Below are positions 1 through 31,122 of a stretch of 64,000 nt of DNA, piece after piece. This stretch comes from Cheilinus undulatus. Its lineage: Eukaryota; Chordata; Actinopteri; Labriformes; Labridae. The translations under genes and the position numbers were made by a program. The notes below the pieces were generated by a model that ran no database searches, had not been told where the DNA came from, and saw only the letters and a program-made list of their open reading frames with translations. The stretch is from assembly GCF_018320785.1 (NCBI RefSeq), contig NC_054867.1:32305855-32369854 (forward strand), written 5' to 3'. Position 1 is the first letter of the stretch; every line of letters starts with the position of its first letter.

Positions 1-1174
1 GTGGACTCTGACTCCTGCTGCTGAGCGGCAGCCTAAAGGGTTTTACACCAAAAATACTCCATTATAATTCATGTTCTTATTCATGTCACACTTCTGCAGA
101 ACTTAACATGGTGTTCCTTGAGGTTAATCAATAGTTAAACATTTCACTTACAGCTTTGACAGTCAGGACGAGGCTTCCATATGTGAAGAAAATGATGAAC
201 ACTGGGAGGAAGAAGTGCACCACAAACATGTAAATGACATATGATTCATTGTTGAAGCCTGGAGCCAGAGTGTAGTAGTCGGGTCCACAGGAGCACTGCA
301 TTCCCTCAGGGAGGTACCTGTGTTGAGGGATAAGACACTTAAGTATTTACAAAGTGCTTCACTGCTACACTATAACTTCCATAAAGCTTTAGAGTTTAAG
401 AGATACACTGAAAGATATTGCGAGTAATCATGAATGAAAGTCACCTGGACCAGCCGAACAATGGGGGTCCAGCACATGAGAAGGCCATGATCCAAGTGAC
501 AAGAACTCCAGCCCCTGCATGAGCACCAGTGAACTTGAAGCTTCCCATGGGTTTGCAGACGACGATGTATCTCTCAACAGCCAGGACCACCAAGGACCAG
601 AGAGCGACTTCACCTGCAGGGCAAACAAGGCAGTAAAAGACACAATTTAGATGTGTAAAAAAATTCAAATGAATGTCCAAGATATCTTTGTTGAGTCTGC
701 TCTTCCAAATGGTTTGTTCCTACTCTGTACTAAAGGTTAACGAAAAGAAAAAATTTAAACAAAATCCAGGACTGAAGTTGACTTGATACCTCCAAGTGTA
801 GCCATGAATCCCTCAATGGCACAAAAAGTTGGTCCAAGAATGAAGTAGCCATTGACTGCAGATGTGATGGTGATGGTGAATCCAAAGGCGCACATGATGA
901 GTCCAGCAATAGCCAGGTTGACCAGGATGTAGTTGAGAGGTTGCTGGAGCTTCTTGTGCTTGAAGGTTACAAACAATGTCAGACCGTTGATGGGGGTTCC
1001 AGTACAGATCAGGAAGAACATGTAGAAAGCCAGAAGTTTGTAGATCATTGGATCTACCATGTAATACTGCGGATATTCATAAGGACTTCTAACAATCCCA
1101 GTCCTGTTGGACATGGGGATGTAGAAATTCTTCCCTTCTGTGCCATTTGGTTCAATGCCTCCTTCCCACACCAT
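1..1174 (-). CDS. opn1mw: RH2 green-sensitive cone opsin, 5' part (exons 1-3 and start of exon 4), cut by the window edge
   Basis: Visual-pigment GPCR that binds 11-cis-retinal in cone outer segments and couples to transducin. Coding exons are 790-1174, 445-613, 152-317 and 1-32 (partial), of 385, 169, 166 and at least 32 nt; all introns are GT-AG and sizes and phases equal those of the plus-strand copy at 14.4 kb. The start at 1174 (MVWEGG) aligns with that copy, and the open frame further upstream is not used because the TATA box lies there. Visible marks (bovine number = residue minus 8): N-glycosylation sites N10 and N23, disulphide pair C118/C195, counterion E121, E130 (bovine 122, the green-type state), ERY at 142-144. 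The retinal lysine lies beyond the edge. It differs from the other opsin at 17 residues in exon 1 and 5 in exon 2, but at none in exon 3. RH2 identity is strong; the subtype (probably RH2A-like from E130) is inference. Confidence 0.95.
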
Positions 1175-1270: not shown

Positions 1271-1387
1271 CCCAACCTCCAGCCTTTTGGTCAAGTTGTC
1301 GAAATTGGATTACAGTTCTGTGAGGTTGCACAAAGTTAACTAAGGTGAACTATTAATCTCACCGGATAGAGGAGCCTGCACCCAAAG

Positions 1388-1910
1388 TCATTTGCTCCAC
1401 TTACCATGTCATAAGGATTAGAGATTAGGTAATGGGAATTACAGATTAAAGAATCTGAAGAAACTACACAACATTTTTTGGACTTCATTCATATTTTCCT
1501 ACTTCTGAACTACTGAACTATGGGCATTAATATGACTCCCACCCCCAGCTTCTGTTCAGCTCTAACAGCTGTGGTTAACCTTCTTCTAGGAAGGCTTTCT
1601 TCAAGGTTTAAGTGCCAAAGAGCATTTGTAAAATCAGATACTGTGGTCAGAAAACAAGATCTGGCTGCCAATTGCAACCTAATTCCTCTTAGAGGTGTTC
1701 AGCTGTAGTTAAAAGATGTGATTCTTCACAACAAACTCATCAAAACGTGCCATTTAAATCCATTTCAGTTCATTAGATCAGAGCTGAAAGAGCAAAAACT
1801 GATAAAAGGCAAAACTGGCAATATCATATATCACTTAGCTCATTACAACACATTCAAAACTTTGCATCTTCAGATATTTCATAACTATGTGCTCGATTTT
1901 ATGCAACTAG
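1388..1910. promoter_or_regulatory. Opsin-proximal block A, duplicated at 7131-7700, with CRX/OTX-type sites
   Basis: This block starts about 120 bases upstream of the minus-strand opsin TATA box and is clearly alignable in the same orientation with 7131-7700. Shared stretches include GTCATTTGC-CCACTT at the left end, GCTCTAACAGCTGTGG (an E-box) near 1560, and CTCATCAAAACGTGCCATT near 1738. On the minus strand it carries TAATCC (1415-1420) and two TAATCT (1422-1427, 1443-1448), the core bound by CRX/OTX homeodomains that drive photoreceptor genes. Duplication is seen directly; promoter or enhancer function is inferred from position and motifs. Confidence 0.6.
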
Positions 1911-3206
1911 TAGCAATTGTTTGGTTGAAATGCTTGAATTGTGTTATTATGAATCATGTCAATGAACTCTTCTTCTGTATAGATCCATGAAATAATGTAA
2001 AGGTTTAAGTGGATAGTGGCTTTAAAATGGTCAACCTCAAACTGAGGCATGTCATTGACTTGACAATGTCATGAGAAGGGGCTCTTCTCTGTCACTAATC
2101 AACTAAACAGATTTTTACTCAATTTAAACAATTTTAACTAAAGCCAAAATGGCTCCCTACTTTCTCTCATTTGATGCAAAAATAATCCAACATTTACTCA
2201 AATAATAATAATAAAAAAAAAAATTATAAAATTTAAACAGCAGTTGCCATGTGGTGGAAGTGAAGTTGTTATTATCCTGATTGGATTGACCTCAGTGTCT
2301 CGTCTTCCGTGACCTCGTGGTTTAGTATCAAAGGCTCAAGGCAACACAAGTCTATGTGGTTATGTCTGCTATAGACTCATCCAATTTTCTAAGCTTCGCT
2401 AATCCAAAGAAAGTAGCACCATCACTCATTAAGGAGCACAGTGTATAGCATAACACCTTTTACGTCAGTCGGGTTTGGTGGCATTAATGGTGCTAGTCAT
2501 TACATGAAATTCACTGCCAAATATGGATATTATTTTTGTTATCATAATCCATTATAATCATCATTAACAAGATGAGTGTTTAGAGACACCACCCTTTTGT
2601 AATCATTGTGAAGAAGCTGATTGTGAGACCTTAATTCAATTCACTGTATCAATCAATTAATCAAGCTTTATGTGTCAAGCGCCAGTTCATATAAAAGCTC
2701 AAGACACTACAGGAAGAGCAGGTCTAGACCATACTCTGTTATATTTTTTGCAAAGATCCAGCATCAATCATGACTATAGCACTAAGTGGCAAATAAAAAC
2801 TGCCTTAAACACATTCTTATGAGAGTAACACCCAGTGTTTGATTTCAGGATGTAGTTCATTCATGTGTAAGGTATTATCTAGTGTGCTCTGTCAAATTTA
2901 GTTTTAAAATTGTTTAGTATAGGCTCTGAATATTAAACTCATTTTTCAATCCTCCAGGATGCTCTTGATCCAAAACAGTAACACAAGATGACAAGCATCT
3001 TCAATTCTATCTTCCTGTTTTGAATTAAGGACTCTACTCAAGAAAATTGCACCGCATAAGATGTATTTACTGAACACTGAAACACCATTTTCATTTCTCA
3101 TGAATCTTAAACAATGAGGGAGAAAATCTGGTATAAGTGTCCTTTGTGGTTAACATTGCAAGCCTTCTGGGATTGTTCACAGAGTTAACCGGAGAGACTA
3201 CTTTTT

Positions 3207-7130: not shown

Positions 7131-7700
7131 GTCATTTGCCCCACTTATCATGCCATAAGGATTAAGGCTTAGATAACAGGAATTAAAGATTGAATAATGT
7201 GAAGGAATTTCAGAAACTTTTTCCGGAGCTTCAGTTGTTTCCCTTATTCTGAACAACCAAACCATGTGCAGTTCGACTTACACAGCCTCCATGCAGCTCT
7301 AACAGCTGTGGCTAACACTTTTCCAGGAAAGCTTTCTTCAAGACTTGAGAGGCAATAAGCTTTTGTGAGATCAGGTACTGATGTCAGCTAATAAGTCCTG
7401 GCTGCTAACTGCCATCTTAATTCCTCTGAGAGGTGTTTAGTTGTGGTTTAAGCTTAAGCACTCTCCAGGCCAACTGAGTTTGTTACATCAAACTCATCAA
7501 AACGTGCCATTCAAATCCTCCTCGGTTCAACAAGACAGATTTGGAAGTCCTAAAATGAAGAGGGGACTTGTCAGTGACAACACTGAGCCACTTTTAAAGT
7601 AAAGTAAAAGATACTTGTCTTTTAATGATCCCAATGCTAAAAGTGGGCTCTGAAAGCTTTGTATCTTTATCTAACACATATGCTTGATTTTATTCACACA
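7131..7700. repeat. Block B: second copy of the opsin-proximal block at 1388-1910
   Basis: Direct-orientation homologue of block A about 5.74 kb away. Alignable landmarks run in the same order: GTCATTTGCCCCACTTATC at the left, CATAAGGATTA with the TAATCC core on the minus strand (7159-7164), GCTCTAACAGCTGTGG near 7296, AATTCCTCTGAGAGGTGTT near 7420, CTCATCAAAACGTGCCATT near 7492, and TGCTTGATTTTATTCA near 7681. About 50 extra bases lie near 7560-7640. On the left side homology stops where block A approaches the opsin core promoter, and no opsin exon follows. It could be a duplicated enhancer or the surviving upstream part of a lost RH2 gene. Confidence 0.75.
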
Positions 7701-14371: not shown

Positions 14372-15872
14372 ATGGCATGGGAAGGAGGATTCGAGCCTAA
14401 CGGCACAGAGGGAAAGAATTTTTACATCCCCATGTCCAACAGGACTGGGATTGTTAGAAGTCCTTTTGAATACCAGCAGTACTACTTGGCAGATCCTATC
14501 ATGTTCAAGCTTCTGGCTTTCTACATGTTCTTCCTGATCTGCACTGGGACCCCCATCAATGGTCTGACATTGGTGGTAACGGCTCAGAACAAAAAACTGC
14601 GGCAACCTTTGAACTATATCCTGGTCAACCTGGCTGTAGCTGGACTCATCATGTGCGCCTTTGGATTCACCATCACCATCACATCTGCGGTCAATGGCTA
14701 CTTCATTCTTGGAGCAAATTTTTGTGCCATTGAGGGATTCATGGCTACACTTGGAGGTAAGAAAGAGGAATTACTCCAGAGTGCTCAGACGAACAAAAAA
14801 AAACAAAAACAAAAACAAACAAAACACTTGGCTTAATGAAATTAATGACTGAATTTACCTCTCCTCTGCAGGTGAAGTCGCTCTCTGGTCCTTGGTGGTC
14901 CTGGCTGTTGAGAGATACATCGTTGTCTGCAAACCCATGGGAAGCTTCAAATTCACTGGAACCCATGCAGGAGCTGGAGTTCTTTTCACCTGGATCATGG
15001 CTATGGCCTGTGCTGCCCCCCCTCTTTTTGGCTGGTCAAGGTACTTTTATCTTTTTTATATTGGTTGAGAATGAATCCTACATTTCTAAACCACTTGAAA
15101 CCACCCTGTGTTCTTTTATTATAGACTGTTGGATAAAACATTTTCACATAACCTCAACACAGGTACCTTCCTGAGGGAATGCAGTGCTCCTGTGGACCCG
15201 ACTACTACACTCTGGCTCCAGGCTTCAACAATGAATCATATGTCATTTACATGTTTGTGGTGCACTTCTTCCTCCCAGTGTTCATCATTTTCTTCACATA
15301 TGGAAGCCTCGTCCTGACTGTCAAAGCTGTAAGTAAAGCTTGTTTTATCTCCAACTTAAATATAACAGGCTGATATTTCTAAATTATCCTAGAAAAAACT
15401 TGAGCTTTTTTCCATCATATCACACCCCTTTAGGCTGCCGCTCAGCAGCAGGAGTCAGAGTCCACCCAGAAAGCCGAGAGGGAAGTCACACGTATGTGCG
15501 TCCTGATGGTGTTTGGCTTCTTGACGGCATGGACACCGTACGCTACCTTTGCTGGCTGGATATTCATGAATAAGGGAGCTTCCTTCACAGCCTTGACAGC
15601 TGCTATTCCTGCCTTTTTCGCAAAGAGCTCAGCATTGTACAACCCTGTGATCTATGTGCTGATGAACAAACAGGTATGGTGAATCCTTTTTTCACTGTTA
15701 AAATGCATCATTCAGTCTTTATCCTTGTACTTGTGTCCTAATTTGCTCCTCTTGTGCTCTCTTTCAGTTCCGTAACTGCATGCTGAGCACTATTGGAATG
15801 GGTGGCATGGTGGACGATGAGACCTCAGTTTCAGCAAGCAAGACAGAAGTGTCCTCTGTATCTCAAGGTTAA
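14372..15872 (+). CDS. opn1mw: RH2 green-sensitive cone opsin, complete, 5 exons, 354 aa
   Basis: Seven-helix visual pigment of cone photoreceptors: 11-cis-retinal on a Schiff-base lysine, light-driven activation of cone transducin. Exons 14372-14756, 14872-15040, 15163-15328, 15434-15673 and 15768-15872 (385, 169, 166, 240, 105 nt); introns of 115, 122, 105 and 94 nt are GT-AG, and phases and lengths match the rhodopsin-family gene plan. Residues seen (bovine = minus 8): glycosylation N10 and N23, C118/C195 disulphide, counterion E121, G91, E130 (bovine 122), ERY 142-144, H219, W273, A277, A300, retinal lysine K304, NPVIY 310-314, and a Ser/Thr-rich tail for kinase phosphorylation. The paired palmitoyl cysteines of rod rhodopsin are absent, as is common in fish RH2. 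E at bovine 122 suggests a green rather than blue-shifted pigment (inference). Exon 3 is almost identical to that of the opposite-strand paralogue. Confidence 0.97.

Positions 15873-24666: not shown

Positions 24667-31122
<6,456 letters not shown>

Follow-up and report, generated by a model that had tools for sequence, protein, structure and literature searches.

The stretch of Cheilinus undulatus DNA analysed here (hereafter the window: 64,000 nucleotides, C3:32305855-32369854, where C3 is contig NC_054867.1 of a genome assembly of 1,173,462,691 bases in 46 contigs) begins inside a cluster of opsin genes that continues past its left edge. We added 70 kb around this edge to the analysis, with an exact overlap with the window, and the left-extended sequence holds five RH2-type opsin genes in a row, each with five exons and an open frame. 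Genes A (C3:32271511-32276794), B (C3:32282119-32285220), C (C3:32293450-32295936) and E (C3:32320226-32321726, window 14372-15872) are on the plus strand, and gene D (C3:32305459-32307028, window 1174 to -395) is on the minus strand, with its 3′ part beyond the window. D and E lie head to head, their 5′ ends opposed and 13.2 kb apart.

Gene D runs on the minus strand from an ATG at window position 1174 through exon 1 (790..1174, ending at a GT splice donor), exon 2 (445..613), exon 3 (152..317) and exon 4 (32 to -207, i.e., to C3:32305647, its first 32 bases being window 1..32) to exon 5 (-395 to -297), which is wholly beyond the window; exons 1 and 2 are open in frame. The plus-strand exons of gene E occupy 14372..14756, 14872..15040, 15163..15328, 15434..15673 and, for exon 5 including the stop codon, 15768..15872, again in an open frame. 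Lys296 is present in all five genes, and site 122 carries Gln in A, B and C and Glu in D and E. A five-exon opsin gene, Lys296 together with Glu113 and an open frame were all found, which are the marks by which we take an RH2 cone opsin to be recognized. By the look of their sequences rather than from a tree of named opsins, A and B resemble what we take to be RH2B, and D and E what we take to be RH2A.

The surroundings of these genes hold several other features. Upstream of gene D lies a direct repeat of ~400 bases (window 1387-1772 and 7131-7529, 72% identical), and no opsin exon was found near its second copy. Window 2645-2770 is a dispersed repeat (30 of 46 among the matches listed, 71-87% identity, many chromosomes) and is probably a short interspersed element. 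Ten of the 28 open frames of at least 100 codons were scanned against Pfam, with one weak match, to MARVEL (window 24670-25368, minus strand; E 0.00018, 22 bits for a Pfam cut-off of 32.8); this frame is perhaps synaptoporin, which we assume to be a neighbor of fish RH2 arrays. Elsewhere in the genome, a cone-opsin-like array at C3:15948439-16078224 comprises at least three close SWS2-like copies and several LWS-like ones, and one LWS-like copy lies at C2:8978574-8982393, these type names being our presumption.

Divergence between D and E is very uneven from exon to exon. Exon 1 differs at 45 of 385 bases and 17 amino acids, and exon 2 at 20 of 169 bases, none of them in the first 52, with 5 amino-acid differences. 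Exon 3 differs at one base in 166 (at exon position 7, where the third base of a leucine codon changes silently) and at no amino acid. Exon 4 is identical over bases 1-38 and then differs at 33 of 202 bases, with 31 differences in bases 39-186 and 2 in 187-240 (33/240 in total; 7 amino-acid differences over the exon), and exon 5 differs at 5 of 96 bases, two E codons being missing from D. Of the third positions, 1 of 56 differs in exon 3 and 66 of 296 in the remainder of the coding sequence (Fisher P = 6e-5). No D-E difference was found at 17 sites taken as retinal-binding or spectral-tuning positions. The original prediction, made from the window alone, had given the same base counts for exons 2 and 3, the 17 amino-acid differences of exon 1 and identity over the 32 visible bases of exon 4, and all of these were reproduced. 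The leftward extension that it proposed as a check yielded both exons 4 and 5 of D, lengthening the exon 4 identity to base 38, and brought into view the break that follows, a third low-divergence stretch towards the 3′ end, and three more RH2-type genes to the left.

Measured by codons, dS between D and E is 0.618 (codons 1-89), 0.024 (90-145), 0.702 (147-184), 0.023 (186-252), 1.141 (254-301) and 0.030 (303 to the end), with 0.029 for exon 3 alone; the segments were chosen after the differences were seen, and the contrast thus describes the mosaic and is no test of it. The first low-dS tract, T1, consists in D of exon 1 positions 268-385 (window 790..907, minus strand, 3 of 118 bases differing) and exon 2 positions 1-52 (window 562..613, 0 of 52 differing), and in E of window 14639..14756 and 14872..14923 on the plus strand, with a dS of 0.024 vs. 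0.618 upstream. The second, T2, is mainly exon 3 of both genes and includes the first 38 bases of exon 4 (window 15434..15471, plus strand, in E), the next difference falling at exon 4:39. The third, T3, covers the end of exon 4 (window 15620..15673, plus strand, in E) and runs on into exon 5 (dS 0.030); with 6 non-synonymous differences (dN 0.054) it is the weakest of the three, and may in part reflect constraint. Since each low-dS segment holds one synonymous difference in 35-45 sites, the relative ages of these segments are indistinguishable.

A permutation test that uses no segments shows the mosaic to be beyond chance. The longest D-E run of concordant polymorphic columns is 56 (exon 3:7 to exon 4:39), which none of 5000 column permutations matched, and none did so for the longest run in third positions only (36 columns). 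A two-state Markov fit also beats a one-state fit (lnL -308.9 vs. -339.8), placing low-divergence tracts at exon 1:249 to exon 2:80, exon 3:1 to exon 4:85, and exon 4:172 to the end of exon 5; this fit was usable for D-E and B-C, while for C-D it fell into dozens of tiny pieces and was left out. It adds two short exon 1 segments (49-94, 1 of 46 bases differing, and 141-195, 3 of 55), so that the number of D-E tracts is uncertain. As the original prediction argued, a uniform age does not account for dS values of 0.02-0.03 and 0.6-1.1 inside one gene pair.

Gene C provides an unconverted comparison. In exon 3 it differs from D at 32 and from E at 33 of 166 bases (19-20%), and at third positions from D at 20 and from E at 21 of 56, against 1 of 56 between D and E. 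This bears on an account without conversion, in which a duplication of uniform age would have had its exon 3 preserved by strong protein- or RNA-level selection. Such selection would suit an exon 3 that encodes identical amino acids in D and E; however, the third positions of C have changed freely there, which indicates that the exon is free to change and that its D-E identity is not explained by constraint, and D-E dS moves in steps of 20-fold or more. We regard this account as scarcely credible, and gene C rules out its simple form, a uniform-age duplication under constraint.

Informative sites lead in the same direction: in exon 3, D groups with E at 32 sites (DE|C), C with D at 1 (CD|E) and C with E at 0 (CE|D), the corresponding counts being 14, 11 and 15 in exon 4:39-186, and 25, 15 and 15 in exon 1:1-267. 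From these patterns, C, D and E form a near-star outside the tracts, and D and E are as one in exon 3. The unconverted parts of D and E (dS 0.6-1.1) appear about as diverged from each other as either gene is from C. The pair combines abnormally low local divergence, beyond chance, within a diverged background with low divergence where a third paralogue diverges, both being signatures of ectopic conversion, and ectopic gene conversion between D and E is well supported by these sequence comparisons.

The introns do not share this similarity. When the cores of D-E introns 1-4 (each intron minus six donor and 20 acceptor bases) were globally aligned and compared with 100 shuffles each, none aligned better than shuffled sequence (z = 0.91, -0.86, -0.13 and -0.32), and the range for 12 non-corresponding D-E intron pairs (-2.19 to 1.01) encloses all four true pairs. 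Gapped alignments with 40 to 66 matched bases per core were rejected, as shuffles score equally. The earlier statement that intron 3 cannot be aligned hence holds, and extends to the other three introns; the roughly 11 matching bases that had been noted at the end of intron 2 were also recovered. Acceptor ends match over 6, 11, 8 and 7 bases in introns 1-4; in a control set of 150 non-corresponding pairs drawn from the introns of the cluster, matches of at least 6, 7, 8 and 11 bases occur in 13, 4, 2 and 0 pairs, respectively. Donor ends match over 3, 2, 6 and 2 bases, with 2 of 150 control pairs reaching 6: the intron 3 donor match (consensus GTAAGT) is at the upper edge of the controls, and nothing stands out at the other donors. 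On the acceptor side, the matches are suggestive of tracts extending a few bases upstream of the exons. They may be old instead: the last 20 bases of intron 4 agree at 19 positions between C and D, which no tract links there.

Two comparisons within this genome show how introns can behave. The three SWS2-like copies at C3:16.06-16.08 Mb are ~95-98% alike, introns included, over the first part of the alignment, which is the part inspected, with indels and one 257-base piece at 90% as the exceptions; recent similarity in this genome can thus extend to introns. Genes A and B are 93-94% alike in exon 2 (10 of 169 bases differing) and exon 3 (12 of 166), and only 52 bases of their intron 2 (1707 and 1499 bases) align, while intron 3 is 1897 bases long in A vs. 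144 in B. There seems to have been an insertion in A intron 3, the intron ends still matching B. From these two introns, introns of the RH2 cluster can also turn over fast by insertion, and A-B is a less clear-cut control than the SWS2-like copies.

Further pairs of genes in the cluster also show mosaic similarity. B and C differ at 7 of 240 bases in exon 4 and 3 of 96 in exon 5, vs. 31 of 166 in exon 3, the last exon 3 base being among the differences, and are 17-22% different across exons 1-3. Their similar stretch (C3:32284642-32285782 and C3:32295383-32296494) has its boundary at the start of exon 4 and spans exons 4-5: it reaches 22 bases into intron 4 (21 of 22 matching), fades, resumes before exon 5 (core z = 8.5), and continues ~560 bases into the 3′ flank beyond the stop codon. 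A and B agree across exon 1 and intron 1 (718 aligned bases, 94.7%). Of 5000 column permutations, none matched the longest agreement run of B-C or that of A-C, and 1 matched that of A-B. For C-D, which agree from exon 2:31 to 88, the run was reached in 309 of 5000 (all columns) and 15 of 5000 (third positions), and for C-E, which agree from exon 2:81 to 130 save one site, in 44 and 91 of 5000, respectively, these C-D and C-E counts being uncorrected for ten gene pairs. From these patterns, conversion is clearly indicated between B and C and between A and B, and weakly between C and D and between C and E. In both B-C and A-B, the similarity has the appearance of DNA conversion.

The interval between B and C also contains a degraded RH2 exon 5 together with its flanks (C3:32287556-32287982). 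Its identity to gene A (the end of intron 4, exon 5 and the 3′ flank) is 76% across 446 aligned bases, and gaps within its exon are not multiples of three. This relic may represent a sixth gene since lost, or else the former 3′ end of B, which a C-like one displaced.

The original prediction concentrated on one pair, and while the D-E mosaic that it described is confirmed, mosaics also occur in further gene pairs of the RH2 cluster. This also counts against the possibility that exon 3 was copied between the two loci through an artefact of assembly or polishing, as does the fact that the copies differ by one base and sit in unrelated flanks. No evidence in support of such an artefact was found in the one assembly examined, and we hold it to be very improbable.

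We consider it likely that DNA-templated ectopic conversion, limited to exons by heterology at the diverged introns, is the best reading of the D-E pair. D and E would be two old RH2A-type cone opsin genes, head to head, with introns and flanks that are no longer alignable, and short stretches would have been copied from one gene into the other by non-allelic conversion at the DNA level. Pairing homology would have been left in exons only, and each tract would have ended inside an exon or a few bases from an exon-intron border, at the loss of homology; tracts thus probably stop where the diverged introns abolish homology. The same process would have acted between other members of the five-gene cluster, and a B-C tract that starts at an intron border fits the expectation of a stop at heterology. 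Recent, exon-limited conversion as first proposed is upheld by the jumps in dS, the site patterns and introns that were not co-transferred, but exon 3 is not the sole tract.

Several separate events would be implied. If no tract crosses an intron, six exon pieces are needed (the end of exon 1, the start of exon 2, exon 3, the start and the end of exon 4, and exon 5), which weighs against conversion at the DNA level. The exons are 166-385 bases long, with D-E identity of 79-84% outside the tracts, and exons of such length and identity are short targets for homologous recombination. Conversion of exons and introns together, followed by decay of the introns through point changes, was rejected, an exon dS of ~0.025 leaving, we infer, too little time.

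One way to reduce the number of events would be a heteroduplex that bridged the introns, with the unrelated introns looped out and repaired to those of the recipient, in one or a few events with patchy repair. This would give joint-spanning tracts of similar divergence without any cDNA. However, it must bridge unrelated stretches of ~90-180 bases (the intron lengths), and the B-C tract halted at intron 3 instead of bridging it; we therefore think such a bridge unlikely.

Another would be a cDNA template, in which a spliced RH2 reverse transcript in the germ line overwrote exons while the introns of the recipient were kept. Mapped onto the spliced transcript, the six pieces merge into three tracts, which cross joints 1-2, 3-4 and 4-5, with unrelated introns in between, and their like dS (0.023-0.030) permits a single event with patchy repair. 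At C11:30441444 this genome also carries a single-open-frame opsin, presumably of the Rh1 type. Ray-finned fishes are stated to have an intronless Rh1 (PMC5686071), whose existence implies past germ-line reverse transcription of opsin transcripts. The D-E tracts were rejected as proof of such a template: three joints are spanned, but a rotation test, in which the D-E difference pattern was rotated along the coding sequence, was not significant. At the four joints, the D-E identity runs measure 90, 8, 197 and 23 bases, a sum of 318 that 166 of 1056 rotations reached, and differences within 10, 20, 30 and 40 bases of joints were equally few in 159, 226, 72 and 87 of 1056. The joint-crossing is suggestive at most. 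Moreover, the 2-3 joint is unspanned (exon 2:167 and exon 3:7 differ), neither D nor E has lost an intron, and the eleven bases of intron 2 beside exon 3 match. Among the 135 protein matches listed (115 of 527 candidates scored), the C11 opsin, at 61%, is the sole RH2-like one to lie in a single open frame, and to our knowledge opsin mRNA is not to be expected in germ cells. A cDNA template appears improbable on these grounds.

Ectopic DNA-level conversion of this kind has close parallels. In African cichlids, RH2A paralogues lie head to head in the RH2 array, and exchange has been suspected between RH2A-alpha and RH2A-beta (PMC3514295); the inverted arrangement, which the original prediction had singled out as of special interest, is not unusual for RH2A pairs in this account. 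Passages of the same source describe introns 1 and 4 of the Nile tilapia RH2A pair as highly similar and 2 and 3 as relatively divergent, whereas all four are unrelated in D-E. They also state that no conversion was detected in cichlid RH2a coding sequences, whereas D-E coding stretches are homogenised, and ascribe conversion to medaka RH2B/RH2C, in which introns 3 and 4 are similar (PMC3514295). Medaka LWSa and LWSb are likewise described as neighboring cone opsins with recent, repeated non-allelic conversion and a diverged 5′ part, but their introns 2-5 were co-converted (351 of 353 bases identical in O. latipes; PMC6389941), and those of D-E were not.

The premise that RH2 paralogues are known to convert in teleosts is borne out by Rh2 duplicates in tuna and other fishes (PMC5686071, citing Nakamura et al.), in a passage that gives no tract anatomy. 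In livebearing fishes, GENECONV-supported conversion is reported between inverted opsin duplicates, a likeness to D-E, but that pair is LWS, not RH2, and the account concerns a coding alignment only; its authors suggested that the inverted position helps LWS conversion (PMC2732921). Conversion is further described in LWS and SWS1 (PMC11291592, PMC11874681) and left open for cod RH2A (PMC4281148), and, across 164 teleost genes, a median of 7-8% of post-duplication codon substitutions is attributed to conversion (PMC10503786). Conversion among fish cone opsins is thus well established, and what is distinctive in D-E is the exon-only anatomy with four unrelated introns. In the open-licence literature, covered chiefly by titles and the starts of abstracts, we found no description of exon-limited RH2-RH2 conversion with unrelated introns.

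For the opsins themselves, the consequence is a protein left identical over exon 3, with 17, 5 and 7 amino-acid differences retained in exons 1, 2 and 4. Because the exons differ in history, inferring RH2 gene trees for the A-E cluster from complete coding sequences would give misleading results. D and E represent a clean natural case of how far conversion can reach once introns have lost detectable homology.
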